Shown here piece after piece: positions 16,080 to 45,461 of a DNA stretch of 45,461 nucleotides. A model generated the notes under the pieces. It had not been told where the DNA came from and made no database searches. It saw nothing but the letters and a program-made list of their open reading frames with translations. This DNA comes from an uncultured Gammaproteobacteria bacterium (lineage in GTDB: Bacteria > Pseudomonadota > Gammaproteobacteria > SZUA-229): the NCBI GenBank assembly GCA_913065105.1, contig CAJXZZ010000013.1, positions 1 to 45,461 of the forward strand, given 5' to 3'. Position numbers and translations under genes: made by a program. Position 1 is the stretch's first letter. Every line of letters starts with the position of its first letter.

Positions 16080-16098
16080 TATTATTTGTATAAAATAA

Positions 16099-16143
16099 AA
16101 TTTAAGCAGGTGTTGATATTTTGAATCCTTTCCTACTTAAAAT
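16099..16143. terminator. Possible bidirectional terminator between fumC and mltD
   Basis: Between two convergent genes, AATTTAAGCAGG (16099-16110) can pair with CCTACTTAAAAT (16132-16143) with one mismatch and one G-U pair. For mltD on the minus strand the stem is followed by ATTTTATTTTA. For fumC no T-run follows. Weak evidence. Confidence 0.3.
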
Positions 16144-16171
16144 GAACAAGTGTATGAATTAAATATTAGCC

Positions 16172-17839
16172 CTAAACTCCACTCTGTTCTGTAACATCAA
16201 TATATAATTTCAGGCGTTGTCCGGGTTGTATATATTTCCCTTTGATAGTATTCCAACGATGTAGATCTTTAACATCGACACTGTATTTAGTAGCGATGCG
16301 AGATAATGAGTCACCGTTTCTTACCGTGTAATGAATCGATTTTATCGTGTTGTTCGGATTATGTGTTTTAACCGAGGCCTGTTTGTTGTTGTGTTTACTG
16401 CTTGACCAGACCACCAGTTTTTGTCCCTGTTTTAATGGATCCCTTATTGCCATGCCATTCCACTTGGCCAGCTTATGCATATCAACGTTATATTTTCTGG
16501 ATATCTCCCAGAAGCTTTCATTACTTTGTACGGTATGATTTATACGTGTCTTGCTACCACGTTTGGTGTTTTGGATAGACTTTATACGCTGCGTTGATGA
16601 TAACGCGTAACTGTTTTTGTTTATGCTGGAAACAGGGATGACAAGATATTTCCCTTCGCGGATGTTGTTGCCCTTTATATTGTTTACTTTTCTTAGGTGT
16701 TTTACAGAGGTATTATATTTCACCGCAATTTCACTTAAGGTTTCGCCTGATTTTATTTTATGCCGTGACCAGCGTAGATGTTTATTAGCAGGAAGTGCCG
16801 AGTAATTTTCTTCAAATATTTCACCTGACTCAACCGGCAGGATTAACGTGTGAGGACCATCAGGGTCAGTCGCCCAACGGTTGAATGCGGGATTGTAGTT
16901 ATATAATGTTTCCAGATCAATCTCAGCTAATTCGGCGGCCAATGCCAGGTCAATCTGTGCCGTGGTTGTTACCTGTTTAAATCCAGGTGCATCAGGTATG
17001 CAACGCAGGCTAATCGAATATTTATCTGGGTCAGTTATGATCTCTTTTAATGCGAGTAATTTTGGTACGTAAGCACGTGTTTCTTTTGGCAGTTTCAGGT
17101 GCCAGAAATCCGTTGGTTTGTTTAACTTTTTGTTGCGTTTGATCGCGCGCTGCACAGTGCCAGAACCAGAATTGTATGCGGCCAGTGCAAGCATCCAGTC
17201 GCCATTAAATTGTTTGTTAAGTCTTTCAAGGAAATTTAATGCCGCCTGCGTTGACGCATAGATATCGCGTCGACCGTCATACCACCAGTTTTGTTTTAAG
17301 CCGTACATACGACCGGTGGATGGAATGAATTGCCAGATACCTGCAGCGCGACCATGTGAATAGGCAAAAGGTTGGTAAGCACTTTCAACGATGGGTAATA
17401 ACACCAGTTCGCTTGGTAAGTTACGTTTTTCTGCTTCTTCTAAGATGTAGTATAGAAACGGATCAGCACGTTTTAAAACACGTTGCATGTATTCAGGATG
17501 TTTAGCAAACCATTTTAATTCGTTTGTTAACTCTTGCTGCTGTGAGTCAGACGTTATTTGAAAACCAGCACGAACACGTGGCCAGATACTTAATGTGGGC
17601 TCAGTGTTCAGGTAGAGCTCTTCAAATTGTTCATATTCGATAGAGTCAAGAGATGTTGTTGGTAGTGCAGTGTTTGTTTGAGAATGCAGCGTGCCGCCAG
17701 ATATTTTCTCTATCGTTTTTGTCGTGTTTTCATTTTCAGCAGATCTGGTTTCATTACATGCGATAAGTGATGTAGACAGCAAGCTAATACTACTGACAAA
17801 AAAAATGGTTTTGATGGATGTGGTAAGTAAGGTCTTCAA
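16172..17839 (-). CDS. mltD: Membrane-bound lytic murein transglycosylase D with three LysM domains
   Basis: Periplasmic lipoprotein that cleaves the MurNAc-GlcNAc bond of peptidoglycan. The 555-residue protein has a signal peptide ending in lipobox LIAC (lipidated Cys28). The SLT domain contains LPIVESAYQPFAYSHGRAAG (catalytic Glu in VES), GIWQFIPSTGRMYGL and LALAAYNSGSGTV. Three C-terminal LysM repeats, which bind peptidoglycan, begin at IKSGETLSEIAVKYN, VQSNESFWEISRKYN and VRNGDSLSRIATKYS. It is divergent from rnhA, and the mltD-rnhA-dnaQ neighbourhood is conserved in gammaproteobacteria. No gloB lies between them as in E. coli. Confidence 0.95.
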   Translation of the reverse strand: MKTLLTTSIKTIFFVSSISLLSTSLIACNETRSAENENTTKTIEKISGGTLHSQTNTALPTTSLDSIEYEQFEELYLNTEPTLSIWPRVRAGFQITSDSQQQELTNELKWFAKHPEYMQRVLKRADPFLYYILEEAEKRNLPSELVLLPIVESAYQPFAYSHGRAAGIWQFIPSTGRMYGLKQNWWYDGRRDIYASTQAALNFLERLNKQFNGDWMLALAAYNSGSGTVQRAIKRNKKLNKPTDFWHLKLPKETRAYVPKLLALKEIITDPDKYSISLRCIPDAPGFKQVTTTAQIDLALAAELAEIDLETLYNYNPAFNRWATDPDGPHTLILPVESGEIFEENYSALPANKHLRWSRHKIKSGETLSEIAVKYNTSVKHLRKVNNIKGNNIREGKYLVIPVSSINKNSYALSSTQRIKSIQNTKRGSKTRINHTVQSNESFWEISRKYNVDMHKLAKWNGMAIRDPLKQGQKLVVWSSSKHNNKQASVKTHNPNNTIKSIHYTVRNGDSLSRIATKYSVDVKDLHRWNTIKGKYIQPGQRLKLYIDVTEQSGV

Positions 17840-18051
17840 GGGTTTGGCACTTTATGTTTTATTATTATTTAGTAATATATTTAACGAAGTATGAGAGATA
17901 CAATCAACCGATATCACATCACACACTTTATCCGGTTAGCAACTGGTGTTATGTGAGGTATAGCTATAACATCGCTAGATAAAATCTCTGTTATCATAAA
18001 TCACGTTTGTCTTAAGCAGATTGTACAACATCAACACCAAAATAGGCCTAT

Positions 18052-18495
18052 ATGAGTACAAATATTGTTGAAATTTACACCGACGGCGCCTGTCGTGGAA
18101 ATCCTGGCCCTGGTGGTTGGGGAGCCAGCCTGCGTTACAGCGGTAAGAAAAAAGACCTGTACGGTTCCGAACCGGAGACAACAAATAACCGTATGGAGCT
18201 GATGGCGGTTATTCAGGCGTTAGAATCACTGACCCGTCCCTGTGCAGTAAAAATATATACTGATTCAAAATATGTACTTGATGGCATGACAAAATGGCTA
18301 CCAAACTGGAAAAAAAAGGGCTGGAAAACAGCGGCAAAAAAACCGGTGAAAAATGTAGAGTTGTGGCAGCGTCTAGATATTGCGGTACAGGCTAATGATG
18401 TTAGCTGGCAATGGGTAAAAGGGCATTCAGGGCATGACGGTAACGAGTATGCCGATATGCTGGCGAATCGTGCCATTGATGAAATGCAGAACTGA
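18052..18495 (+). CDS. rnhA: Ribonuclease HI
   Basis: Degrades the RNA strand of RNA-DNA hybrids. At 147 residues it has all catalytic motifs: [16 protein letters not shown] (first Asp), [12 protein letters not shown] (Glu), [11 protein letters not shown] (second Asp) and [18 protein letters not shown] (His and last Asp). The basic protrusion ([20 protein letters not shown]) used for hybrid binding is also present. It reads toward dnaQ, as in E. coli the two are adjacent, though there they are divergent. The 133-bp gap to dnaQ holds no recognisable gene. Confidence 0.97.
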
Positions 18496-18628
18496 TCAAT
18501 GAAAATTGTAGCGAAATCGTTGCTCGGTAAATGCTCTGCTTTACCTTACCATCCACCCATGGACATTTGCATTGCTCTATTAAGTGGCCCCGTGTCACGA
18601 AGACGATTGTTCAGTATATAATCCATCC

Positions 18629-19354
18629 ATGGAAATAAATAATGATAACCCTGTAAATAACAGGCAAATTGTCCTCGATACAGAAACCACCGGTTTAGAG
18701 CCCAGTCAGGGGCATAAAATCATTGAAATTGGTTGCGTCGAAATGATCAACCGACGTTTGACTGGTAATAATTACCATCAGTATTTACAGCCGGATCGAG
18801 AGATCGATGAAGGTGCACAGGCGGTGCATGGTATCAGTAATGAGTTTCTAGCTGACAAACCACGGTTTTCAGATGTGGTTAAAGATTTTATTGAATACCT
18901 TGATGGCGCTGAGTTAATTATCCATAACGCCCCTTTTGACGTTGGTTTTATCAATCATGAGTTTAAGCTGATTGGCGACGAATACGGCAACGTAAGTACA
19001 TATTGCTCTGTTATCGATACCCTGGTAATGGCGCGAAAAATGCGTCCGGGTAAGAAGAATAATCTGGATATACTATGTAAAGAATATCAGGTAAATAATG
19101 CGCACCGCGAGTTACATGGCGCCTTACTAGATGCCGAACTGCTGGCAGAAGTTTACTTACATATGACTGGCGGGCAGAGCGCTCTGTCATTAGAAAGTGA
19201 TGACACCAGGGCTGCTGGATATGGCGCTATATCGGCCAAAACGTTGTCGGCTGACAGAAGGCCGATAAAAATCATTCAGGCAAGTGATGAAGAGCTACAG
19301 GCGCATCAAGCGATTATTGAAAAGATGGGTGATGTTGCTAAAAGTTGGCAGTAG
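18629..19354 (+). CDS. dnaQ: DNA polymerase III epsilon subunit (proofreading exonuclease)
   Basis: 3'-to-5' proofreading exonuclease of the replicative polymerase core, partner of DnaE encoded at 30372. DEDDh motifs: Exo I VLDTETTGLE, Exo II IIHNAPFDVGF and Exo III HRELHGALLDAELLAEVYL. The frame extends upstream to a GTG at 18584. The ATG at 18629 is preferred because it places the RQIVLDTETTG motif at the same distance from the start as in E. coli and gives 241 residues (E. coli 243). The C-terminal region after about residue 190 is the flexible DnaE-binding tail. Neither possible start has a good ribosome site. Confidence 0.95.
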   Translation: MEINNDNPVNNRQIVLDTETTGLEPSQGHKIIEIGCVEMINRRLTGNNYHQYLQPDREIDEGAQAVHGISNEFLADKPRFSDVVKDFIEYLDGAELIIHNAPFDVGFINHEFKLIGDEYGNVSTYCSVIDTLVMARKMRPGKKNNLDILCKEYQVNNAHRELHGALLDAELLAEVYLHMTGGQSALSLESDDTRAAGYGAISAKTLSADRRPIKIIQASDEELQAHQAIIEKMGDVAKSWQ

Positions 19355-19372
19355 GCAGTTATCTTTAAGAGA

Positions 19373-19852
19373 TTATCGAATTTTTAAAGATCTGGCTTTT
19401 TCTCTCTGCCAGTCCCGTTCTTTAATGCTGGCACGTTTATCATGTTCTTTTTTACCTTTGGCAAGTCCGATACTTATTTTTACTCGGCCATTTTTCTTCC
19501 AGAATAGCGAGAGTGGCACCAGGGTGTAACCTTTACGCTCGATTTGGCCGATCAAACGATCGATTTCATTGCGATGCATTAAGATTTTACGTGAACGTGT
19601 TGGACTGGGATGAATATGTGTTGATGCACTGATTAATGGCGTGATACTGCCGCCGACCCACTCCAGCTCACCATTTCGGGCTAGCACGTAACTATCGTTT
19701 ATTTGCACACGACCTTCACGCAAACTTTTGACTTCCCAGCCTTCAAGCACCAGACCACCTTCGAAAGTGGATTCGATGGTGTAATCAAAGTGGGCTTTTC
19801 GGTTGCGCGCAATGGTGTTGTCGTTTTGTTTCTTGTTCGGTTTTTTAGCCAT
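19373..19852 (-). CDS. smpB: SsrA-binding protein SmpB
   Basis: Binds tmRNA and delivers it to stalled ribosomes in trans-translation. The protein is 159 residues from the ATG at 19852. A longer frame from a TTG at 19879 adds nine residues unlike SmpB and is rejected. Seen: [20 protein letters not shown], the core motif [19 protein letters not shown] and the basic C-terminal tail [20 protein letters not shown], which reaches into the mRNA channel. It is convergent with dnaQ (18 bp apart) and divergent from the SNF transporter. No tmRNA gene was recognised nearby. Confidence 0.96.
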
Positions 19853-20064
19853 GGTGTGCTGAAAATTCAGGCATGCCAAAATAAGGCAGGCAAGTATAAC
19901 TTGGATGTTTCATGCTATCACTCTTTCTTTAGGGCGATTTGCCATAAAAATTTAAAAATAGCTTGAGTAAGCGTTGTAAATTGTTGAAAATGAAGCACAA
20001 AAAATAGCAGAGAGTAGTTTGTTAGAAACTCTGTTCCTAAAAATATATGGTCTGTTGAACAATT

Positions 20065-21435
20065 ATGACTGAAAAGCGCACTTCGATCCATGGTCAGTGG
20101 ACCAGCCGTACCGTATTTATCCTGGCGGCAACAGGGTCTGCCGTTGGTTTAGGGAATATCTGGAAATTCCCTTATATCACTGGTGAGAATGGTGGTGGAA
20201 CCTTTGTATTAGTGTACCTGTTATGCATCGCATTAATCGGTGTTCCCATCATGATGGCGGAAATCATGTTGGGCCGCCGTGGGAAACAGAGTCCGATCAA
20301 TACCATGCTTGCACTGGCTAAAGATGAACACCGCAATCCTGGCTGGGTCTGGTTGGGCTGGATGGGGGTCGCTGCCGGTTTCCTTATTCTCTCTTATTAC
20401 AGTGTCATTGCCGGCTGGGCGATGTCGTATGTGTTTCGCACGGGCGGGGGTATGTTTCTCGGTATTACCGCCGATGGTGCTAACAGCATATTTGCTGCCC
20501 TGGTGGGAGATCCAGAACGTCTGCTGGCCTGGCATACTATTTTTATGCTGATAACCATGATGGTCGTTGCACGTGGGGTAAAAAATGGGCTTGAAAAAGC
20601 GGTCACGCTTTTGATGCCCTTATTATTTGCCTTATTAATTGTTATCGTTATATACGCCATGACGACGGGTTATTTCATGGAAGGTGTTCGGTTTTTGTTC
20701 ACCCCCGGTACGATCGATGGTAAGGGTATTTTAACCGCTATGGGCCATGCCTTTTTCACCTTAAGTTTGGGTATGGGGGCTATCATGGTTTACGGTTCCT
20801 ACCTGTCAGAAGAATACTCTATCGTGCAGGCATCTATTCTGATTGCTTTGGCTGATACGGTGGTTGCCTTGCTTGCAGGCCTGGCTATTTTTCCCATCGT
20901 TTTTGCCAATGGGCTGGAACCCGGAGCGGGTCCAGGATTGATATTCCAGACATTACCCATAGCTTTTGGCCATATGCAGGGCGGGACGCTGGTCGGTGTG
21001 GTTTTTTTCACCTTATTGATGTTTGCCGCATGGACCTCGGCAATCTCACTGATTGAGCCAGCAGTTGCCTACCTGGTGGAAAACAAGGGAGTTAATCGTA
21101 TTTATGCGTCTGTATGGATTGGAGGTCTAACCTGGTTCGTTGGTTTAGGTACGGTTTTTTCTTTTAATATCTGGAAAGATAAAACCTTGAGCATTCCCTA
21201 TTTATTTGAGAATAAAACGTTTTTTGATACGCTGGATTATTTAACGGCGAATATCATGTTGCCGTTAGGTGGCTTGTTTATTGCTCTGTTTGCTGCGTGG
21301 GTAATGCGAGAGCAGTCAACCAAAGATGAGATGAAAACCTATCCGTTTATCTATAAAACCTGGCGTTTTTTGGTTCGTTTTATTACACCGGTCGCTGTTA
21401 TTATTGTGTTTCTAAAAGCCGTCGACGCTATCTAA
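20065..21435 (+). CDS. Sodium-dependent transporter of the SNF (neurotransmitter:sodium symporter) family
   Basis: A 456-residue inner-membrane symporter with about 11-12 hydrophobic segments. The first helix has the family hallmark AATGSAVGLGNIWKFPY, an unwound region that holds Na+ and substrate, followed by NGGGTFVLVYLL and GVPIMMAEIMLGRRG. The shorter bacterial form resembles LeuT-type and MhsT-type carriers for amino acids, but the substrate cannot be read from the sequence. It lies 17 bp before ratA on the same strand and is probably co-transcribed with ratA-rnfH. Confidence 0.9.
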   Translation: MTEKRTSIHGQWTSRTVFILAATGSAVGLGNIWKFPYITGENGGGTFVLVYLLCIALIGVPIMMAEIMLGRRGKQSPINTMLALAKDEHRNPGWVWLGWMGVAAGFLILSYYSVIAGWAMSYVFRTGGGMFLGITADGANSIFAALVGDPERLLAWHTIFMLITMMVVARGVKNGLEKAVTLLMPLLFALLIVIVIYAMTTGYFMEGVRFLFTPGTIDGKGILTAMGHAFFTLSLGMGAIMVYGSYLSEEYSIVQASILIALADTVVALLAGLAIFPIVFANGLEPGAGPGLIFQTLPIAFGHMQGGTLVGVVFFTLLMFAAWTSAISLIEPAVAYLVENKGVNRIYASVWIGGLTWFVGLGTVFSFNIWKDKTLSIPYLFENKTFFDTLDYLTANIMLPLGGLFIALFAAWVMREQSTKDEMKTYPFIYKTWRFLVRFITPVAVIIVFLKAVDAI

Positions 21436-35364: not shown

Positions 35365-38300
35365 TCATTTGAACATATGGTGTTTTTTATGCGAACTATC
35401 ATTATGAAAATATTTATAGCGGTAAATTGCATCATTGCCATGGCATTCGGCGCAGACAATATTTTCGCTGTTACCAGCACGTAAAAAACTGGTACGTGCA
35501 TCCCCTTCAGTATTTTTTCCTGGGCCTTTAGTCTTTTTACCTGCATCCCACCGATGAGGATTATGGCAACTGGCGCATGTGATAGAACCAAAATCACTGC
35601 GTTTACCATTGTTATCAAATACCGGGGTGTCAGGCAGATTTTCACCGGGGTGCATGTTCTCACGTAGTTCGGTGGACCAGATTTTTATCTGTTGCGGATG
35701 TTTTGCCAAGGCCGGGTTTTTGTGAGCCGCAAAACCCAGTGGGTTGTGGCAACTACGGCAGCGCTGTTCGATAGGGTCGTCGCCTTTCCCAAGTTTTTGA
35801 GACCAGAGATAGGCATCAGCTTCGCCGTTGTGTGGTACATGGCACTGACCGCACAGGCCGGAGACATTCTGTGTCTGACCCAGCGTGTTAGTCGCGTCGG
35901 TTGTTGAATGCTTCAGGTCATGTTCGCTGCCGACGATGGTTTTCTTGTCTGCATGGCACGTCAGGCATAAATCACTGTTTTTATTCACGCTCAGGCGCAG
36001 GAAGCTGTTGCTTGTGTCGCCATCTTCGGACAGCATGGCAAGGCTACGTTTGTTAATGTCATCTGGATCCCAGCGGTGCGGGTTATGGCAACTGGCGCAA
36101 TCCACCTGTCCCTGACCATTTTCTTTTCTACCGCCATCAGCTGCAAAGGTTGGGATGCGCTTATCATGGTGCAGTTTACTGGCATCTGCACCTATCGGGT
36201 GATTGTGTTTGCCGGGCAGCTTATCCTGTGCCAGAGCATCTTTCTGGTGACAGTCAGTGCACAGTGCGGCGATAGCCGTTTCACCAGGGCCTTTACCTCG
36301 CGCCCACAGAGCAGGGCCTTTGGCGTTGTGTGGACGGTGGCAATGCATGCAGGGACCAGATAGATGCTGTTTCTGGATGTCGATGTTTTGGTTTTCTTCA
36401 AGCTGGGTAGAGAACTTGCCTTCCTGCTCAGTAACGTCATGTTTGGTGAAGTAGACGCTTTTTTTGTCGACATGGCAGTTGACGCACAACAGGCTCAGGC
36501 TCTTATCTGCAATACGCAGAAAGCTGTTGCCCGTGTCACCTTCTATTTTAGAAGGATCTTCTGCTTTGATCTCATCCAGCTGTGTCCAGTTATGTGGATC
36601 ATGGCAGGTGCCACAACCAACGCGACCACCTATGAGGGCTTGTTTGCCGGTCGAGTCATACAGCGGTAGCGGAATCAGTTCTTCACCGATGATACTGTCG
36701 GTATTGCTCGAGGTTTCAAGTGTGCTAACCCATCGATCAATGGTAGCGGTGATGTTCAGGTTTTTCACTGGCGCATTGACTGGATGAGAATGGTTACTTA
36801 TGGTTTTCTCTTTTGCCAGACCTTTATCATTGTGACAGCCCAGGCAGGCGACGTAACCCGTGCCCTGACCGGTCAAGTCGGCACGTGCCCATAAGCGATT
36901 GCCTTTGGCATTGTGTACCAGATGGCAGGCGCCGCAGATGCTGGATTCATCGACGGTCTGCCCCAGTGCATTTTTTGATTCCGGGGCCATTTTTCGCATG
37001 TCGTGTTTAGTGTTGGCGATATTCCATTTTTCTTTATGACAGGTTTTACACAACTCTGCCTGTGGACCGTTGGCGATGCGTAGGAAGCGGTTGGTATTGT
37101 CGCCTTTGTCGCCAGGTTTTGCCTTGTTGTGGATGTTGTTGGAATCCCACTGGTGTGGGTCGTGACAGCTGGCGCAGGAGACCTTGCCCTGTTCTACATC
37201 ATTCCATTTAAAACCACTGTCACTAAAAGTAGGCAGGGTTACACTGTGTTTTAGTTTTGTTATCGGTACACCAACAGGATGTGAATATTCTCCCACGGTG
37301 TGTTTTTTCGCCACTCCATCTTTGTTGTGGCAGCTCATACACAGTGATGTCATGGGGTCGTATTTTTGATCCGGTTTTATATCCAGCGTGCGTGCCCACA
37401 TCTTTGGACCAGTGCCTTTATGGGGTACATGGCAGGTACTGCAGGGGCCTGAGTTTGATGCCAGCTGCTTGCGGATATTGATACTGTCTTTGTCTGCCAG
37501 CCGTAAATCATGTTTGCTATCAATTACATGACGTTTATTTTCATGGCAGTCCTGACACAGACTATCTTTTTCGTTTTTAACCACTAGCAGATTTGTTTCA
37601 GGTAGGGCATCGTGAGGACGGTGACAGGTTTGGCAGATTACTTCACCATCGCTACCCAGTTTTGCGCCCTGTTTAAGCATAGCCTCAGGAACTTTCGCCT
37701 GTTTGGGTTTGACGTTAACGGGGTGCGTATGCAATTTACCCGCATGTTCCAGATCTCTGGCGTAGCGGTTTACATGGCACTGACCACAGAGTTGGGATTT
37801 ATCATTTTTTAGCAGTAGTATTTTTTTTTCTGGAGCAGCATGGGCTTTGTGGCAACTCTGGCAAATTACTTCGCCATCTTCTGCAAAAAAGGCACCAGCT
37901 GCCATTAAATCTTGAGGCGGTTTTTTTAACAGGTTTTGGATTTTTGTTTTTAATGGATGGCTGCCATGTTTGGGGCCTTTTATTTTTCCCTTGTGACAAG
38001 CCATACATAATTGACCATTTTCATTACGCACGCGCATGAAAACGGCGGTGTCTTGCTGGCCCCACGCAACGCCATGAGCCGTATGACAGGTGCCACAGTA
38101 AACTTTGCCATCCTCATTTAGCGGGAACAGTGTTTTCCCCTCAACAAGGGGGATTTCAATTTTGTCGGAAGGTTTTACTCCTACCGGGTGAGCATGTTTA
38201 TTTTCTTCCCATAAAAAGCGTGAGTCCAGTACAAAACCATCATGGCATGAAAAGCAGATTGGTTCAGTACTGGCTATATCCTGTTTGCCTGTTGGCATGA

Positions 38301-38532
38301 CTGGCTTAGGATCATAGGGGATTAACGTGCTGATATCATCGCGCTTGAATTCTGTTAGCCACATAATATGACAGGTCGCACATTCTCTGTTTGCAGATGG
38401 CTGGAGTATTACCGCCTGCGAGTAGTGGCTGAACAGAAGCAGGCATAAAAAAAACAAACCTGAAAACAGGCGGTGATAGCGGGTGATCACCGTTTGTATG
38501 CTGTTATTTCTTTGCCGGTGAAACAGCATCAT
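35365..38532 (-). CDS. Giant multiheme cytochrome c with 24 CXXCH motifs
   Basis: A 1055-residue Sec-exported protein (signal peptide about 1-40, cleavage near SQA; no lipobox). It has 24 CXXCH heme sites, the first at residue 51 and the last at 1027, on average one per 43 residues. Hemes 1-8 are spaced irregularly. Hemes 9-24 form four tandem tetraheme modules (starting about 364, 533, 728, 894), each with the order CxxCHxPHxxG, CxxCHxxxG then HSHPxG, CASCHxPHxW, CxxCHxxK then HD. Most CXXCH motifs of the doubled type are followed by (D/N/R/V)PH, giving a second axial histidine. The protein should be a long heme wire in the periplasm or outside. The ATG overlaps the stop of the NHL gene (ATGA). 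No porin gene is next to it. Confidence 0.93.
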   Translation of the reverse strand: MMLFHRQRNNSIQTVITRYHRLFSGLFFLCLLLFSHYSQAVILQPSANRECATCHIMWLTEFKRDDISTLIPYDPKPVMPTGKQDIASTEPICFSCHDGFVLDSRFLWEENKHAHPVGVKPSDKIEIPLVEGKTLFPLNEDGKVYCGTCHTAHGVAWGQQDTAVFMRVRNENGQLCMACHKGKIKGPKHGSHPLKTKIQNLLKKPPQDLMAAGAFFAEDGEVICQSCHKAHAAPEKKILLLKNDKSQLCGQCHVNRYARDLEHAGKLHTHPVNVKPKQAKVPEAMLKQGAKLGSDGEVICQTCHRPHDALPETNLLVVKNEKDSLCQDCHENKRHVIDSKHDLRLADKDSINIRKQLASNSGPCSTCHVPHKGTGPKMWARTLDIKPDQKYDPMTSLCMSCHNKDGVAKKHTVGEYSHPVGVPITKLKHSVTLPTFSDSGFKWNDVEQGKVSCASCHDPHQWDSNNIHNKAKPGDKGDNTNRFLRIANGPQAELCKTCHKEKWNIANTKHDMRKMAPESKNALGQTVDESSICGACHLVHNAKGNRLWARADLTGQGTGYVACLGCHNDKGLAKEKTISNHSHPVNAPVKNLNITATIDRWVSTLETSSNTDSIIGEELIPLPLYDSTGKQALIGGRVGCGTCHDPHNWTQLDEIKAEDPSKIEGDTGNSFLRIADKSLSLLCVNCHVDKKSVYFTKHDVTEQEGKFSTQLEENQNIDIQKQHLSGPCMHCHRPHNAKGPALWARGKGPGETAIAALCTDCHQKDALAQDKLPGKHNHPIGADASKLHHDKRIPTFAADGGRKENGQGQVDCASCHNPHRWDPDDINKRSLAMLSEDGDTSNSFLRLSVNKNSDLCLTCHADKKTIVGSEHDLKHSTTDATNTLGQTQNVSGLCGQCHVPHNGEADAYLWSQKLGKGDDPIEQRCRSCHNPLGFAAHKNPALAKHPQQIKIWSTELRENMHPGENLPDTPVFDNNGKRSDFGSITCASCHNPHRWDAGKKTKGPGKNTEGDARTSFLRAGNSENIVCAECHGNDAIYRYKYFHNDSSHKKHHMFK

Positions 38533-39497
38533 CTCCCCAGTTGGTAGACAGAAACTCTGTGTTTTTTCATTTCAACCACATAAAGTCTGTTTTTATAGAT
38601 AGTCATACCAACCGGTGTCAGCATGTCGTAAGGTTTGCCTTTGTCACCCAGCACAGCAACAAAATTCCCGTCATCTGAAAATTTTTGTACCACATTCATA
38701 TAACTGTCCGAAATGTAGAAATTCCCATGCTGGTCAATGGCGATACCTTTGGGTCGGAACAGTTTCCCTGGTAATACTCCCCATTCGCCAACCACCAGTG
38801 ATATGCTGCCATCGGTGTTAAATACCTGAGCGCGGGAGTTCAGTACATCAACGACAGCAATGCGTCCATCGTCCAGTTCACTTATGGTTGCTGGATAGCG
38901 AAATTCTCCACGGTTCTTTCCATTGTTTCCCCATTTTTTCAGCAGCTTGCCTTTGGGTGTGTATATCATCAACCGATGATTGCTGCCGCTAACAATGATA
39001 TTGCCGGTGCGAGAGTGACGGATAAGGTCTATCGGTCGGATTTCTTCTTTATTGTTTTTAACGTTAAAGCCAGACAGAAAAACGCCCTTATCGGAAAAAA
39101 TCTGGATACGGTGATTACCAGAATCGGCAACATAAACTCGGTTATCAGTAGAAACATCAATACCAACGGGATAATTTAGCTGGCCGGGCTGTTCGCCCTT
39201 GCTACCAATGTGAAATAGAAACTTTCCCTTAAGATCATAAACCATGATGCGATGGTGACTGCCATCAACAACATAAATTTTTCCGGCATGTACGGCAATA
39301 TCACTGGGTAACTGCAGAGCTTGCTTACTGTTATCGTCCGCTGTGACGCCCAGTTGTAGAACCTTATGGGCTGTTTGTGTTTTTATTTTACCTGCAGTAA
39401 TTTCTGCAGAAGCAGAACCTGTGGCTACAAAAAATAATAAACACAGGTTTGAAATGAAACCGATGCAATTATTTTTTATCCGTTGACGGTGTTGCAT
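38529..39497 (-). CDS. Exported six-bladed NHL-repeat beta-propeller
   Basis: A 322-residue protein with a Sec signal (about 1-31, ending TGSASA). It has six NHL repeats with starts such as LQLPSDIAV, LNYPVGIDV, FRYPATISE, LFRPKGIAI and MLTPVGMTI, and the strands IYVVDGSHHRIMVYD and VYVADSGNHRIQIF. NHL propellers are scaffolds for protein or ligand binding. The frame extends upstream to 39566, but that part overlaps the previous gene and is only its out-of-frame translation; the ATG at 39497 puts the signal peptide at the N-terminus. It overlaps the preceding gene by 29 bp and the following cytochrome gene by 4 bp, so it is translationally coupled and probably docks to the 24-heme protein. 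Confidence 0.9.
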   Translation of the reverse strand: MQHRQRIKNNCIGFISNLCLLFFVATGSASAEITAGKIKTQTAHKVLQLGVTADDNSKQALQLPSDIAVHAGKIYVVDGSHHRIMVYDLKGKFLFHIGSKGEQPGQLNYPVGIDVSTDNRVYVADSGNHRIQIFSDKGVFLSGFNVKNNKEEIRPIDLIRHSRTGNIIVSGSNHRLMIYTPKGKLLKKWGNNGKNRGEFRYPATISELDDGRIAVVDVLNSRAQVFNTDGSISLVVGEWGVLPGKLFRPKGIAIDQHGNFYISDSYMNVVQKFSDDGNFVAVLGDKGKPYDMLTPVGMTIYKNRLYVVEMKKHRVSVYQLGR

Positions 39498-40545
39498 CTG
39501 AACGTCGCCACCAGGCGCGACCTTTGAGTAATTCTTCATTTGGGATGTTTGTTTTATCATTGTCACCGACTATGGATTCTACGTCAGGTAGTGATGACTG
39601 CTTATTTAATAAATCAGGCATATAGAATTCCTTGTACTTTTCAACAATACCAACAATGTTCAAATTTGTCACATTATTGATACGTTGTTCGGAGAAACCC
39701 AGTGATCTGAATGGAAGATAACTTTTTTCTTCATCAGTATGGCAGCGAGTACAGAAACGGCCTTTTCCCATAACTAGACCATGAAAACGTTTTTTAATGG
39801 ACACTTTATCTTCATTTGATAATTTGTCTTTGATCTGAAGAAATTCTTTTGCGTCAGGGTTGTCTTCAGTTATCTCCAGCAGTTCTTCTTCACCATTGTT
39901 TTTGGAATAAACAACAATTTTGGAATAAACATCATCGGTATCGATAAGGTAACCGGTTTCAGGATTGATATCAGTGCCAAAAGGTTGCCCCTGTACCTCG
40001 ATGCCTGAATAGTTGAGCCACTGAAAAGTGTAATCATCTTCGGGTTTCTTGCGGGGGTCGGTATGGCAGGTCATGCAACCAATAAACTGAGTGTGCATAT
40101 TGAGCAGCGTTCTGATCATAGGTTTCTTAGAATGCGGGTAATCGCCATGACATTGAGAACAGACCGTTTTTTTACCCAGGTCTACTTTGTTAGTAGCCGG
40201 AATATTATGAAAATGCCGCTGGCTTTCTGAATAACGTTGATATTTGATTTCTTTTAGTAATTCAGGTCTCTCGGGCTCTTTTTTGAAAAGGCCAAAATGC
40301 TCACCCATTACTATAGTTAGCACCAGTAGCAGACTGATGATAATGGCGCCAAGAAAAAAAGTGGTAACAAATGCAATAACTGGATGTTCCCGCCTGATAC
40401 CGATAATACTGAACGGGCTGTGCTGAAAATGGCCGGGTATTTTGCTTTTATGATCGATCAAAACCAGCATGACAATACCGAACAGAATAAACAGTATTAT
40501 TGTCAGTACAACAAAAATGGTGAGTTGAGTATCAGTCGCGTGCAT
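39469..40545 (-). CDS. Membrane-anchored triheme cytochrome c
   Basis: A 358-residue protein with two N-terminal transmembrane helices (about 8-30 and 57-80) and a C-terminal domain. That domain carries three CXXCH motifs: CSQCH (129), CMTCH (157) and CTRCH (265). Heme attachment requires this domain to be periplasmic. The first two hemes are close together and the third follows a 100-residue insertion. It fits the role of a cytochrome that takes electrons from a quinol-oxidising b-type subunit. The C-terminus has the motif KGRAWWRRS, like the tail of the octaheme gene product in the same operon. An AGGG ribosome site lies before the ATG. Not assigned to a named family. Confidence 0.87.
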   Translation of the reverse strand: MHATDTQLTIFVVLTIILFILFGIVMLVLIDHKSKIPGHFQHSPFSIIGIRREHPVIAFVTTFFLGAIIISLLLVLTIVMGEHFGLFKKEPERPELLKEIKYQRYSESQRHFHNIPATNKVDLGKKTVCSQCHGDYPHSKKPMIRTLLNMHTQFIGCMTCHTDPRKKPEDDYTFQWLNYSGIEVQGQPFGTDINPETGYLIDTDDVYSKIVVYSKNNGEEELLEITEDNPDAKEFLQIKDKLSNEDKVSIKKRFHGLVMGKGRFCTRCHTDEEKSYLPFRSLGFSEQRINNVTNLNIVGIVEKYKEFYMPDLLNKQSSLPDVESIVGDNDKTNIPNEELLKGRAWWRRSDATPSTDKK

Positions 40546-40558
40546 GGTTTTACCCTGA

Positions 40559-40675
40559 TTAATATTCCGTCAGATACAGCCAGATAGTAAACAGCCCAAA
40601 TGCTGTCCAGAAAAAAATAATACCCAGAGTGAAATAGGCAAATATTTTTTGCAGAGGGGTCATCGGTTGTATCAT
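40559..40675 (-). CDS. 38-residue single-helix membrane protein in the cytochrome operon
   Basis: This small gene is hidden between two annotated-size genes. The ATG (40675-40673) overlaps the TGA of the b-type cytochrome gene in an ATGA junction, the frame ends in TAA at 40559, and the triheme gene starts 13 bp later. The peptide begins MIQPMTPLQK, has one hydrophobic helix (about 11-34, rich in Phe, Ile and Trp) and ends TIWLYLTEY. Position, translational coupling and clear membrane character suggest a small subunit that stabilises the cytochrome b/c complex, as small helices do in other respiratory complexes. No homologue is recognised. Confidence 0.75.
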   Translation of the reverse strand: MIQPMTPLQKIFAYFTLGIIFFWTAFGLFTIWLYLTEY

Positions 40676-41616
40676 GTGGTTTCTCTTGTCGCCTGCATTG
40701 TGTCGTTACCCGTGTCTGGCGAAAGTTCTCTGGCATCCAGTAGGTCGCTTAAATAGGCACGTTCTTCTGGTAGTTCCACCAGGTTGCGTAAATACTCAAG
40801 AAAATGTTCTTCAATCTGGTGTTCACGGGTAATTTTTCCGGTAAGAAAAGTCCATTGCATAGGGAAACGACCGGGGGCCAGATGCACGTTGTACCAGTGC
40901 CAGAAAGCAATCACCAGCAGCGCCAGTAAAGCTTCATGCGGATGTGATAAACGCATCATTTCCTGAAAGTAGGAAGCAGCGCCTTCGGGTAAGATTGATG
41001 CCCAGAATTCCGGGAAGATGAATGATGAACCGGAGATAACCATTACCAGATTACCGAAAGCCGCTGCATAATAATGAATTTTTTGTTTGTACATAAACTT
41101 ATCCATTTCCGGGCGCTGGTCTCGCGTGCCAGCGAAGTACAGCATGTCGGCTTTGAAATCACGGACATCTTTCATCGTGGGGATAATGCTGCGTTGGATT
41201 TCGAACTGTCGCAGTGTTATATCGCGAATGAATATCCAGAATAAATACACTATGTGATACACCATGCTGAATATCATTATACTTGCCAGGGTACGATGAA
41301 TAATACGTGAGATACCAATACCGCCGACCATATCGTTTAATGGTTGCGCCCAGACATGATCGATAAAAGCAATAGGTAAACCGGTAAACGCCAGTGTCAG
41401 GAACGTGACAAAGAGCAGCATGTGCTGGATGCGTATATGGATAGAATAGCGTGATAAATCGCCAATCGGATTAGACACAACATTCTTGTACAGCAATACA
41501 CGATCATCGGGCATATTGTCGATAAGTTGCTCTATATCCTCGCGTTCTTTATCATCAAGCTTGTTGATGCTCATCGATTTTTCAAGGACACTTTGTGCTT
41601 CAGTCGATAATTTCAT
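40672..41616 (-). CDS. Four-helix b-type cytochrome (cytochrome b561 / formate dehydrogenase gamma-like)
   Basis: A 314-residue integral membrane protein with four helices (about 66-86, 105-130, 182-204, 230-250). Histidines suited to binding two b hemes are H65, H107, H121, H181, H227, H240 and H245. The layout, including NVHLAPGRFP after helix 4, matches quinone-reactive di-heme b subunits of the formate dehydrogenase gamma/cytochrome b561 type. It probably oxidises (mena)quinol and passes electrons to the c-type partners. A charged 60-residue N-terminal extension (DDKEREDIEQLIDNM) precedes helix 1. It is 45 bp after the octaheme gene, and its stop overlaps the 38-residue gene. Confidence 0.87.
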   Translation of the reverse strand: MKLSTEAQSVLEKSMSINKLDDKEREDIEQLIDNMPDDRVLLYKNVVSNPIGDLSRYSIHIRIQHMLLFVTFLTLAFTGLPIAFIDHVWAQPLNDMVGGIGISRIIHRTLASIMIFSMVYHIVYLFWIFIRDITLRQFEIQRSIIPTMKDVRDFKADMLYFAGTRDQRPEMDKFMYKQKIHYYAAAFGNLVMVISGSSFIFPEFWASILPEGAASYFQEMMRLSHPHEALLALLVIAFWHWYNVHLAPGRFPMQWTFLTGKITREHQIEEHFLEYLRNLVELPEERAYLSDLLDARELSPDTGNDTMQATRETT

Positions 41617-41661
41617 ATTTGTTTCCAGTTATATGTCTATCTCTTGTCTTGGTAATATCGC

Positions 41662-42762
41662 TTATTCGATTCGATCTCGTTTTCTTGATGATTTGCGCCA
41701 CCAGGATGATCCTTTATGTAACACCCAGCCAGCACCATCACGACGACGACCAATAGTTTCAAACAAGGCCATAGCAACCAGTAAAACAATGACTATATCA
41801 CCAACCCATGAGTAGATTAAATTAGCGTAATAACGAAATGGGCTATGCTCTTTTTTACTTGAGGGGTGAGGATCCAGGTCAGCATAGTTTTTATCTGCAT
41901 GAATGTGACAGTTTTTGCAGGTCTCTACCTTGTTGTCTGCATGAACAGGTGATTCAGGATCACGTGATGGGCGAATATCGTGCACATTCATGTAATAGTT
42001 ATCTTTCTTAGCGTGACAGTCCAGACAGTTGGCGGCCTTGGTAAAACCATAACTTGTCACTTTGCCATGAAAACTTTCATCGTAAGATTCCACTGCTATG
42101 GCATATTTTTTCCCTAGCTCTCTGCCTTCTTTCTTAGCTGCTTTAACATGACGTTCCACCAGGGTTTTGTCACTGTGACAACTGGAGCATAATGCTACGA
42201 TCTCTGATGGATTACGTTTGACTTCACGAATACGGCGACTGGTATGTTTGTACCAGTCGGTGACAAACTCACGGTCTTCATGACATACCACGCAGCGATC
42301 AACAATTTTTTTCGGTGGTTGCTCTTCATTGGGGTTGTATATTGGGTTGGTATGGCAGGTGATGCAATATGGCTTATCTGCATCCATTCCCGTTTCGATT
42401 TTGTCTCGGCCATGAACACTGGCTTTGAACTTATTGTAGATTGGTTCGTGGCTGAACTTTTTCCCAGTGGCTGGATTTTTGATCGAATGGCATTCTGAGT
42501 CGCAGCGAACGCCTTCTTTTACTTCTTTATGTGGTAGTTGCTTAATGTAATTATGGCAGTCTGTACAGGGTACATTGCGGTGTACGGTAGAAGCAAACAT
42601 ACCAGGCATGACCTGATAGGATCTTTTAACTCCCTGCTCAGTAATACGCCCCATTTTTGGGTATTTATGACAGAGTAAACAACCTGAGTCATCCTCAAAG
42701 GCCCAGGCTGGTTGAATCAAATACAGCATTAGCAAGGGGATTATGAGAATGTAATTTTTCAT
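41662..42762 (-). CDS. Octaheme membrane-anchored cytochrome c with one CX3CH site
   Basis: First gene of the operon; 366 residues. Signal peptide (about 1-21, ending AWA), then eight heme sites: CLLCH (28), CTDCH (66), CDSECH (87, three residues between the cysteines), CITCH (133), CVVCH (157), CSSCH (192), CLDCH (246) and CKNCH (282). A C-terminal transmembrane helix (about 313-335) is followed by a basic tail with KGSSWWRKS. The layout (periplasmic hemes, C-terminal anchor, b-type gene next) recalls the c-type subunit of Cbc-like quinol:cytochrome complexes of Geobacter, a comparison made from memory. CX3CH is a rare variant of the heme site. The 560 bp upstream hold the promoter and no gene. 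Confidence 0.9.
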   Translation of the reverse strand: MKNYILIIPLLMLYLIQPAWAFEDDSGCLLCHKYPKMGRITEQGVKRSYQVMPGMFASTVHRNVPCTDCHNYIKQLPHKEVKEGVRCDSECHSIKNPATGKKFSHEPIYNKFKASVHGRDKIETGMDADKPYCITCHTNPIYNPNEEQPPKKIVDRCVVCHEDREFVTDWYKHTSRRIREVKRNPSEIVALCSSCHSDKTLVERHVKAAKKEGRELGKKYAIAVESYDESFHGKVTSYGFTKAANCLDCHAKKDNYYMNVHDIRPSRDPESPVHADNKVETCKNCHIHADKNYADLDPHPSSKKEHSPFRYYANLIYSWVGDIVIVLLVAMALFETIGRRRDGAGWVLHKGSSWWRKSSRKRDRIE

Positions 42763-43323: not shown

Positions 43324-44055
43324 TTAATTACTTACTTTTGCATCTTCAACAATTACTTCGTATGTATAGCCATAGCCGAATTTTTTATTTAACGCCAACG
43401 AACCTTCTACCACGATAACATCATCAATTTTGGCGCTCGCACTTGTTGTAATGGTAAGATCTTGTTGACTGCTGCTATCACGAATATGTATCCAGTTTTT
43501 ACCCAGGACATCTGCCGTATACTTGCTTACCTGGCCTCTTATCTTTACAGTTTTTTCTGCAAGTGTTTTTTTGTTTTCTAGTACATCGGCAATGGTATGA
43601 CCATTTTCAGCTTTTTTAAATGATTTGAGTGCTGAAGCAGGTTTTTTCCTGGTGGCATTTTTGTGAGGGTCGGGTACACTAGCAACAGAGCTTTTACCAT
43701 TTATGATAAAAGCATGAACAAAGTAGATGGTCTCAAAATCACGTCCCAGTGATTTACTGTGGAAATCTCTCATTACCATTTTTCCGCTAAAACCGATGTG
43801 ATCCCCCTTATTTATGCTGGTAATGGGACCTGCTACCCATACTGGGCCATCATTAGTCTTGATTTGCACATAGGTGTAACCACCCGCATCAAAGGTTTCA
43901 ATTAAATCGCCGCTAATAAGGTTGCTGTTATGAACCTCGGAATTATCTTTAGAAGACGATTTTTCTGTAGCAGTGTCTGCGGATTTGCTTGCCAGGCAGC
44001 TTGTTACTACCAGTGAGGAGAGCAGTAAAGTACTAATAAGTTGTTTGATGTTCAC
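43324..44055 (-). CDS. NrfJ-like / OB-fold lipoprotein
   Basis: A 243-residue exported lipoprotein (lipobox VTSC, Cys20) with two domains. Residues about 45-115 have AGGYTYVQIKT, VWVAGP, and MVMRDFHSKSLGRDFETIYFV, the pattern of the NrfJ-like family found beside multiheme cytochrome genes. Residues about 150-243 form an OB-fold segment with GHTIADVLENKKTLAEKTVKI, GKNWIHIRDSS, DLTITT and a closing YGYTYEVIVEDA. Such proteins are thought to help maturation or assembly of cytochromes, but the role is not established. It is 137 bp after the tetraheme gene and ends at a strong terminator. In the 137-bp gap is a 16-base palindrome (44128-44143). Confidence 0.75.
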   Translation of the reverse strand: MNIKQLISTLLLSSLVVTSCLASKSADTATEKSSSKDNSEVHNSNLISGDLIETFDAGGYTYVQIKTNDGPVWVAGPITSINKGDHIGFSGKMVMRDFHSKSLGRDFETIYFVHAFIINGKSSVASVPDPHKNATRKKPASALKSFKKAENGHTIADVLENKKTLAEKTVKIRGQVSKYTADVLGKNWIHIRDSSSQQDLTITTSASAKIDDVIVVEGSLALNKKFGYGYTYEVIVEDAKVSN

Positions 44056-44192
44056 AGTTTTCTCTTTGCAGTTGTTAGTAATTTTATGTGCTGAATTCTA
44101 CATGCTAAACGTAGATCTTTGTTTGCTTAAGATAAAAATCTTACGTTATTTTATTTAATGAAAGTTCTCAGTATTCTGTATCAAGCAGGTTA

Positions 44193-44879
44193 TTATTTGT
44201 TATGGCATGTCAGACAAATTTGACTGCCAGCTTTAGTGATCCTAAGAAATGGTTGATTCTTGTTACCTGGTCCAACAAAATTGTTGTGTACATCGTGGCA
44301 TGAAGTACATTGTACTTTTCCATCGGATAACAAAAGATTTGTGATGGTACCAGTTTCACTTGCCTCGCCACCAGCACCAATCGTGACTATTTGTATAGAA
44401 GGATCATAAAAACTGGGATCTTTTGCGGCTAGTTCTCTATTAAAGGTGACCGACAGTGGATGCTCCTTAGTTACGCTGTCACCAGACGTTGCTGTAATGT
44501 CACCACCGTTGATTGCCAAGCTGCTATTACCACCAATTTTATCGAGTGCAACAACTCCATCGTGACACGATAGACAGAGCTTTGATACACCCGAGGGTTG
44601 ATCCTCGAGGGCTGTATTTATATTATCTGTAGAATACAGGCTGAAAGTGCTAATGGTAAAAGCATGGTTCCATACAGGCGATTCTACGATAGAATTTTCC
44701 GAATTGTGCGGTGTATGACAGACAACACATAATTCACCACCAGTGAAACCGCTATTAACCAGGTCATGGGCAGTGCCGGTGATGCTACCGGCTATTACCA
44801 TACCGGTTGTTAACAACGAAAGTATTGCAACCAGGCTGCTAGTTAGCCTGTAGCTGAGGCTTGTAGTGTGATTCGTCAT
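44193..44879 (-). CDS. Tetraheme cytochrome c
   Basis: A 228-residue exported protein with a signal peptide (about 1-30, cleavage near VIA) and four CXXCH sites: CVVCH (51), CLSCH (102), CTSCH (191) and CLTCH (222, almost at the C-terminus). The mature start GSITGTAHDL and the CVVCHTPH and CTSCHDVH motifs are typical of doubled-CXXCH periplasmic cytochromes. The 85-residue insert between hemes 2 and 3 is Gly/Ser/Thr rich. It has no membrane anchor, so a soluble electron shuttle is likely. It is 80 bp after the partial cytochrome gene on the same strand and probably shares its transcript. Confidence 0.88.
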   Translation of the reverse strand: MTNHTTSLSYRLTSSLVAILSLLTTGMVIAGSITGTAHDLVNSGFTGGELCVVCHTPHNSENSIVESPVWNHAFTISTFSLYSTDNINTALEDQPSGVSKLCLSCHDGVVALDKIGGNSSLAINGGDITATSGDSVTKEHPLSVTFNRELAAKDPSFYDPSIQIVTIGAGGEASETGTITNLLLSDGKVQCTSCHDVHNNFVGPGNKNQPFLRITKAGSQICLTCHNK

Positions 44880-44959
44880 CTCAAGTCTTTGTTTATCTGT
44901 ATTAATGCTATTTTTAGCGTTAACGAATTAATAAATAGTATATTCATAAAATTTGATCT

Positions 44960-45461
44960 TTATTTAAAATGACAGTACTGGCAAATGTTTTTTGCTCTGA
45001 GTCGTTTCGTACTATCAGCGCCTTTAGCAGTTGCTGGATTTTTAATAACGCCTTTTTGATGTACGTTATGGCATGTACCACAAAAAACTTTTCCGGTTTT
45101 GGGCTCCAGTGGAAAGCTGATCTGATTTTTTTCTGACATCTTCTGCAGCCTGTTTTGTGTTGATTCTGATGGTTTTACAAGATGGTCAGGGCCTGAATCT
45201 TTTTTGAAAAAGGTAAACTGACCACCAGGGTGTGGTGTCCATGGGTGACAGCCCCAACACATGGTTGATAAGGATTCTTCGGCGTTAAATTTAAGTTGAT
45301 CGATATTTTTAAGCTGAAGCAATCGGGCAGTTGTATCAGCATGACAGATAGCGCATTTTTCTGTTTTTAGTTGACCTTGCTCGTTGATCTGATCATGCGG
45401 GTTGAGCCGCTGATACTGGGTTTTATCGTGACATAAAAAACATAACTGGCTACGTCTTTCA
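44960..45461 (-). CDS. Multiheme cytochrome c, C-terminal part (at least 5 hemes)
   Basis: The frame is open to the right edge, so the N-terminus lies beyond the window; an in-frame TTG at 45322 is internal. The visible 166 residues carry five CXXCH motifs in order: CFLCH, CAICH, CWGCH, CGTCH and CQYCH, the last two residues before the stop being FK. The segment between hemes 3 and 4 (CHPWTPHPGGQFTFF) is not typical of a common family known to me. It is the most upstream visible gene of the second cytochrome transcript. Confidence 0.85.
   Translation of the reverse strand, partial: ERRSQLCFLCHDKTQYQRLNPHDQINEQGQLKTEKCAICHADTTARLLQLKNIDQLKFNAEESLSTMCWGCHPWTPHPGGQFTFFKKDSGPDHLVKPSESTQNRLQKMSEKNQISFPLEPKTGKVFCGTCHNVHQKGVIKNPATAKGADSTKRLRAKNICQYCHFK

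Follow-up and report, generated by a model that had tools for sequence, protein, structure and literature searches.

Systems that carry electrons across the cell envelope are considered here as excerpts of the cited articles describe them. The undecaheme electron transfer system (Uet) of Tenderiales is coded by uetABCDEFGHIJ (PMC10734462, PMC12575090). The PCC3 conduit consists of a periplasmic cytochrome with 21-27 hemes, a porin and an inner-membrane heme protein (PMC5566968, PMC10734462), while OetABI is a porin conduit of Desulfobacterota with linked OmcX/OmcS-like filament genes (PMC10553843). The OmcE filament (PDB access code 7TFS) rises 34 Å per tetraheme subunit (PMC12954529), with a heme in one subunit ligated by a histidine from the adjacent subunit (PMC9473688). 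The route of electrons between the quinone pool and such cytochrome nanowires is unsettled. The stretch analysed here, called the window, is the whole contig C13 (CAJXZZ010000013.1; 45,461 nt) of an uncultured gammaproteobacterium of lineage SZUA-229 (assembly GCA_913065105.1), whose genome is 99.69% complete with 3.28% contamination. Its six leftward genes A to F, at positions 35365-42762, probably code the half of a Uet-like extracellular electron conduit that belongs to the inner membrane and the periplasm; the chain of the conduit would lead from quinone to an OmcE-like filament. Every step from quinone pool to nanowire appears to be encoded in one conserved locus, so that the route can be tested as a whole, in Proteobacteria oxidising sulfur and iron rather than in Geobacter.

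The gene cluster and its conservation

All six open reading frames (ORFs) are present. They are spaced by 45 (A-B), -4 (B-C), 13 (C-D), -98 (D-E) and -4 bp (E-F), the 98-bp overlap of D and E depending on a GTG start. They code for 35 c hemes, 8 in A, 3 in D and 24 in F. The compact leftward operon with at least 35 c hemes of the preliminary description, which was based on the letters of the sequence, is thus borne out.

Protein A (41662-42762, reverse strand like all window genes described here; 366 amino acids) is a membrane-anchored octaheme c cytochrome with seven CXXCH motifs and one CX3CH. It features a signal-like amino terminus and a carboxyl-terminal helix and is likely to be found at the periplasmic face of the inner membrane. 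All eight heme motifs, CX3CH included, and eight further histidines are invariant in the 52 sequences aligned, a set that would fit eight bis-histidine hemes with these residues as presumed ligands. The AlphaFold2 model of A (mean predicted local distance difference test score, pLDDT, of 71.9) gave no match in Foldseek. Searches of PDB sequences gave best expectation values (E) of 0.56 for A and 0.7 for B.

Protein B (40672-41616; 314 amino acids) is a four-helix b-type cytochrome of the Ni_hydr_CYTB/formate dehydrogenase gamma type. It matches PF01292 (Ni_hydr_CYTB) at E 2.9e-8 and TIGR01583 at E 6.5e-13, the latter under that family's cut-off. Eleven histidines are invariant in 55 of 55 sequences, the hydropathy peaks are compatible with four helices, and B probably holds a quinone site. 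In a tree of B from which one long row (L090) had been removed beforehand, and whose paralogue branches are extreme, the window clusters with five related loci (100/97). Two rows titled Acidobacteriota are placed among Sedimenticola, and no claim of transfer is made.

The membrane peptide of 38 residues that had been singled out in the preliminary description, C (40559-40675), has a single helix and is conserved between B and D in relatives, as a peptide 64.9-84.2% identical in eight of them. Its hidden Markov model (HMM) matches in 46 of the 53 loci containing both B and D, and the remaining seven have a similar hydrophobic ORF of 37-42 residues in the B-D gap. Protein D (39469-40545; 358 amino acids) is a triheme c cytochrome (three CXXCH) with two membrane helices in its amino terminus. 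Protein E (38529-39566) is an NHL six-bladed propeller (PF01436, E 3e-27) with a signal-like amino terminus. In most relatives the D-F interval holds an NHL gene, and the ORF tables show it displaced or absent from this position in L085, L088, L091, L092, L094, L097 and L098.

The cluster runs beyond the window. Position 45461, the contig end, lies inside it, and the leftward genes at 43324-45461, upstream of A, belong to the same cluster. They code for an OB-fold-like lipoprotein (43324-44055; lipobox-like VTSC, weak OB-fold matches below cut-off), whose gene is also present in several related genomes, and for the OmcE-like tetraheme cytochrome P0008 (44193-44879), a putative nanowire subunit. 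The last gene, cut by the contig end, codes for the carboxyl-terminal part of an octaheme cytochrome of the type named X8h (44960-45460), with five hemes visible and 70% identity to residues 215-380 of a complete relative of 380 amino acids. Contig C78 of the same genome starts within an 11-heme gene (X11h), followed on the same strand by genes coding an NHL protein, a porin-like protein of 663 amino acids (P0009), a second NHL protein and a tetraheme cytochrome (X4h type, P0012). The visible 559 residues of the undecaheme protein have 11 CXXCH and are 55% identical to the counterpart in locus L064. P0009 has a signal-like start and a carboxyl-terminal phenylalanine. The two NHL proteins (PF01436; P0011, E 2.9e-16, and P0010, E 6.5e-22) have lipobox-like starts and their genes adjoin the porin-like gene. 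In the same-genus genome G008, a single contig holds both the C78-type genes and A-F, separated by a divergent A'-B'-D' triad that is inserted there and by two more genes. The half of the cluster on C78, together with relatives that have the whole set, indicates that the lack of a porin gene in the operon's surroundings, as first described, is an artefact of the contig end.

A scan of genome contigs with B gave 57 loci, many of them incomplete, in which the gene order is conserved. Among the names in their titles are Thiobacillus, Sulfurimicrobium, Sedimenticola, Ca. Thiodiazotropha, Thiohalomonas, Sulfuritalea, Gallionellaceae, Noviherbaspirillum denitrificans and one Nitrospiria. The cultivable N. 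denitrificans TSA40 (locus L093) has A-F, and the 18 kb examined around them showed no member of the porin-like family. Labelled by best HMM and with gene pieces included, F is present in 47 of the 57 loci, NHL in 53, X8h in 44, X11h in 32, X4h in 30 and the porin-like family in 28. When only full heme numbers are taken, X8h with eight hemes is found in 41, X11h with 11 in 26 and X4h with four in 26. Where a full 20-kb window is available (25 loci), F is always present, X8h (eight hemes) in 22, X11h (11) in 19, X4h (four) in 18 and the porin-like protein in 18. Because the seeds of the models came from these very loci, the HMM counts are not independent of them. Two gene orders are seen repeatedly, 4h-NHL-porin-NHL-11h-8h-A-B-C-D-E-F and NHL-4h-porin-PQQ propeller-8h-A-F-NHL-11h. 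The first one is found, on one strand, in the single-contig genome G159 of 2.96 Mb. Two further samples were searched in a loose first pass that scored few candidates; they agree poorly with each other, and neither gives a good frequency estimate: B was found at E 1e-60 in 9 of 369 genomes of the class, its own included, and the repeat model A5 at E 1e-20 in 1 of 398 genomes of the phylum, its own, in four places that are all in F.

In loci L062 and L066, F is followed by genes coding a tetraheme cytochrome, a peptidyl-prolyl isomerase (PPIase; PF00639), a barrel-sized protein and a triheme cytochrome, a set near the published Uet parts list that ties the module to the Uet system. The L062 segment (15634-20578) begins directly after an 18-heme F and holds two trihemes. 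The two porin-like families are mutually related (hhalign 98.8%). The neighbour of 370 amino acids in the POR2 loci was considered as a candidate for the Uet PPIase and rejected, since the example scanned, from L089, is a PQQ/BamB-like propeller.

The preliminary description had proposed comparing the gene order in relatives and looking for a porin-cytochrome locus elsewhere in the genome. The first gave the conserved order above and the second, besides the porin-like gene on C78, a second and unrelated outer-membrane conduit on contig C15. There a decaheme MtrA-like gene is followed by MtrB (PF11854, E 1.6e-167), beside a divergent octaheme gene of 518 amino acids (L111, 2991-8014). A diverged A'-B'-D' triad (six CXXCH, b cytochrome, triheme; L027, 7429-10026), the second such module of this genome, lies on its contig C54. 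Similar triads are inserted beside or within the main cluster in some relatives (L055, L083, L084 and L106, for example), and in L055 (2566-4934) a radical SAM/B12-binding gene (515 amino acids) and a gene of 262 amino acids without Pfam match lie beside the inserted triad.

Past the cluster, the seven remaining complete ORFs of at least 100 amino acids in the 14 kb of C78 examined code for Smr, SurE, PCMT, VTT, LysM/M23, sigma-70 and DUF498 proteins. They include a surE-pcm-VTT-LysM/M23-sigma-70 stretch (L110, 7081-12849), and the cluster looks as if it adjoins the rpoS region. The promoter scan gave 16 sites, fewer than the 23.1 found in shuffled sequences, and the terminator scan 11 against 8.6.

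OmcE-like cytochromes and the 24-heme protein F

The tetraheme protein P0008 is a full-length homologue of OmcE, aligned to 7tfs over residues 16-228 of its 228 (E 2.5e-22). P0012 aligns near full length (E 7.2e-23). All four CXXCH are aligned in both cases, and the tetraheme proteins also match a second PDB entry, 9yuq. P0008 and P0012 have four CXXCH each and are 52% identical to each other. One distal histidine per heme, the amino-terminal one included, is conserved in 26 of 26 four-heme relatives of P0008, in the order KH-PH-HP-DPH, and one of these residues would presumably ligate the neighbouring subunit. Both proteins are predicted to form filaments. The undecaheme protein also has an OmcE-like domain at residues 17-220 (7tfs, E 4.4e-29).

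Protein F (35365-38532; 1055 amino acids) has 24 CXXCH and a signal-like amino terminus with no anchor after it. Along the chain its hemes form first an amino-terminal block, then two half units and finally four tetraheme repeats, each 166-195 residues long, which match one another at 31-41%. In profile-profile comparisons each tetraheme block reaches 98.2-99.5% probability against the OmcE-like tetraheme family. The four consecutive units U1-U4 (residues 335-1050; 35383-37530) score 98.9-99.5% and the amino-terminal block U0 (residues 45-200; 37933-38400) 98.3%; the half units that follow U0 score about 97%, over the last heme pair only. The block alignments extend from profile columns 83-86 to 264-265 or wider and take in the whole stretch of the profile between its outermost heme motifs, these included; in that of U3, the sole one printed, all four heme motifs are paired. 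The multiheme controls A (three cuts) and D gave 0.8-3% against the same family. With the OmcE-like model, hmmsearch found no match at E up to 10 in A, D and, from the same genome, MtrA, the octaheme protein of 518 amino acids and a 28-heme protein. A search with the U3 profile has 7tfs (3.7e-6) and 9yuq (4.3e-6) on top. The KH-PH-HP-DPH order recurs through U1-U4, with slight variation of the adjacent residues. These comparisons of sequences and profiles strongly suggest that the repeats of F are OmcE-like.

Eighteen-heme variants of F are also found. In 11 of 12 variants the hemes missing are 6-7 and 10-13. The remaining one, L102, has these hemes but not the final six, and its gene appears as two ORFs, with 18 and 5 hemes. 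Directly behind the 18-heme variant, L108 (15791-19495) and L070 (15862-19254) code for very large proteins, with 12 and 11 CXXCH respectively, and that of L108 joins PKD and class I cytochrome domains. The 28-heme protein, from contig C17 (L113, 4757-7084), has 775 residues and is unlike F.

The preliminary description had taken F as the terminal carrier. Its signal-like amino terminus without later anchor places F better as a periplasm-spanning link, and the OmcE-like tetraheme protein is the likelier end piece. At the OmcE rise per tetraheme, the 24 hemes of F would extend over about 20 nm if packed as in the filament. Such a length suits the Gram-negative periplasm. It is conceivable, and put forward tentatively, that F amounts to an OmcE polymer fused at the gene level, a fixed-length wire (about 20 nm with 24 hemes, about 15 nm with 18) that bridges the periplasm to meet the OmcE-like domain of the undecaheme protein at the porin, with OmcE-like filaments beyond. 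The heme-histidine link made between subunits in OmcE would be supplied by F inside one chain. If true, a single heme-stacking geometry would be used from the inner membrane to the exterior, the periplasmic wire apparently coming from the same domain as the external filament. F would also be a natural single-chain OmcE-like oligomer for structural work.

The proposed conduit and its alternatives

The conduit is modelled on the observed gene content, its conservation and synteny, the heme and histidine counts and the OmcE homology of the tetraheme proteins. B, whose b hemes would be reactive with quinone, would form with A, D and the small membrane subunit C a quinone:cytochrome complex that exchanges electrons with F, the wire across the periplasm. 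F would pass electrons to or from an outer-membrane set composed of the porin-like protein, X11h and X8h, which would connect to the OmcE-like tetraheme filament outside. The NHL proteins may help assembly or docking, the latter having been first proposed for E as a scaffold; beta-propeller and prolyl-isomerase companions are known in nanowire assembly from work on OmcS. The proposal first made, of extracellular electron transfer by a quinone-linked b/c module together with a large multiheme wire, is kept as the likeliest reading of the genes.

The direction of flow can be argued both ways. The genome has two RuBisCO matches and carries dsrA and ccoN (cbb3 oxidase) above their cut-offs. The organism is therefore likely a sulfur-oxidising autotroph, which leans toward electron uptake, whereas the analogy with Cbc complexes leans toward discharge. 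Inward use, in which electrons from Fe(II), minerals or a partner cell reduce quinone and support CO2 fixation, has a chance not far from even. In addition to these genes, it is favoured by relatives titled Thiobacillus, Sulfurimicrobium, Gallionellaceae, Thiodiazotropha and similar, by the description of Uet as an uptake cluster (PMC12575090) and by the inward modelling of PCC3 (PMC5566968). A sulfur oxidiser could, however, equally discharge electrons when oxygen is short, and the Geobacter b/c complexes are described for reduction of Fe(III) or electrodes. Outward use, with oxidation of quinol and transfer to extracellular acceptors, is a plausible minority view. The composition parallels Cbc5, with three c cytochromes, one b cytochrome and one membrane protein (PMC11434368), and CbcBA is described as serving Geobacter respiration at low potential (PMC12307469, PMC10553843). 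This parallel is one of composition, CbcBA was proposed to run in reverse in Seep-SRB2 (PMC10553843), and the autotrophic, sulfur-oxidising gene content argues for the opposite direction.

Several results speak against an OmcE-like nature of F. The related A' scores 42% against the OmcE-like family and X8h 96%, the latter over the last heme pair only. The OmcE-like model finds a relative's X8h at E 4.9e-9 and an octaheme protein of 760 amino acids of the same genome at E 0.024. The AlphaFold2 model of F (pLDDT 73.4) does align to 7tfs, over 137 residues with 31% identity and a root-mean-square deviation of 2.9 Å, a match that favours the likeness, but its Z of 6.7 (VIA-align) is below the Z of 8 from which the tool advises more trust; as the comparison took in only seven chains and listed 7tfs alone, other folds may fit as well. 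Foldseek returned no OmcE match for this model, its sole match having E 5.9. NrfA cytochromes are found behind 7tfs and 9yuq in the U3 search (E 8.7e-5). Finally, F has 23 conserved distal histidines for 24 hemes, heme 1 lacking one; Met57 is present in 38 of 42 sequences. It is nevertheless unlikely that F is an ordinary multiheme wire with doubled CXXCH whose likeness to OmcE is a generic heme-motif pattern. The appearance of NrfA-type cytochromes and of OmcS in the profile search and the last heme pair shared with X8h fit such a wire, but the alignments that span the OmcE-like profile, the low scores of A and D, the lack of matches in MtrA, the 518-residue octaheme and the 28-heme protein, and the histidine cycle common to OmcE-like proteins count against it.

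Other points weigh on the conduit as a whole. The physiological role of cytochrome filaments as wires is disputed in the literature, as far as the excerpts show. Neither Pfam nor NCBIfam has a match for the porin-like family, which gives only a weak beta-pattern signal (z 1.9) and is absent in seven of the 25 full loci (L062, L066, L067, L079, L088, L092 and L105). C13 and C78 are linked through synteny and binning alone, and about 0.7 kb is probably absent between them, a figure estimated from alignments to G008. That the six-gene module acts alone in the periplasm, for instance by storing electrons or by serving a periplasmic reductase, with the outer-membrane genes as mere neighbours, would suit those seven loci but is improbable, given that two of them (L062 and L066) have another barrel-sized protein and a PPIase beside the module, that L079 has a weak porin-like match (E 4.5e-6) and that linkage to outer-membrane genes recurs in two distinct arrangements.

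Relation to described systems

Some described systems do not fit the cluster. An Mtr/Mto/Pio conduit was rejected, the porin-like P0009 having no Pfam match and the one MtrB match of the genome lying on contig C15. Cytochrome bc1 was rejected as well, there being no Rieske Fe-S subunit among the six proteins, and so was a porin-less system, by C78 and the relatives with the whole set, the single-contig G159 included. The 24 hemes of F, a protein probably located in the periplasm, fall within the 21-27 of the PCC3 cytochrome, a likeness by heme number. The five-helix inner-membrane protein of PCC3 is described with the motifs WX3HX13H (twice) and SGXXG; B has neither in 55 of 55 sequences, and PCC3 was rejected on this ground. 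OetABI is alike in that a porin conduit is encoded together with filament-type cytochromes, but it has other cytochromes and, as described, no inner-membrane module in the same cassette.

The inner half is closest to Geobacter Cbc5/CbcBA (cbcEDCBA), in which three c cytochromes (here A, D and F), one b cytochrome (B) and one membrane protein (C) are coded in one operon (PMC11434368). The comparison is by composition only, and in contrast to Cbc5 the operon found here is linked to a porin-type cluster. For the outer half the closest system is Uet, whose features are taken from the descriptions in PMC10734462 and PMC12575090, so that the likeness is one of parts lists. Proteins like the undecaheme UetJ, the tetraheme UetA and the two NHL proteins UetHI are found here too, and P0009, with its weak beta pattern and no family match, is a candidate counterpart of the beta-barrel porin UetC. 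The PPIase UetB is not among the cluster genes seen on C78 and in the window, where the cluster genes match other families. The three soluble trihemes UetDEG have no counterpart among the ORFs of at least 100 amino acids in the parts seen; D is a triheme but carries its two membrane helices. The cluster adds the octaheme X8h, the inner-membrane proteins A-B-C-D and the 24-heme F. As it lacks the PPIase and the soluble trihemes, it is named Uet-like and not Uet.

The likeness to the OmcE nanowire (7tfs) extends over the full length of the tetraheme proteins, the amino-terminal domain of the undecaheme protein and the repeats of F. OmcE itself is a Geobacter protein, and F has its domains joined in a single chain. 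Among the literature matches listed, as far as their excerpts go, neither an inner module of this kind with Uet nor OmcE-like repeats in a 24-heme cytochrome are described. The statement of the preliminary description that the operon corresponds to no nameable system holds for the whole, for which no single name was found, but not for its halves, which resemble Uet and, in composition, Cbc5. The cluster is a real and recurrent combination of known kinds of parts, in which the OmcE-like concatemer F is possibly the one new structural idea.

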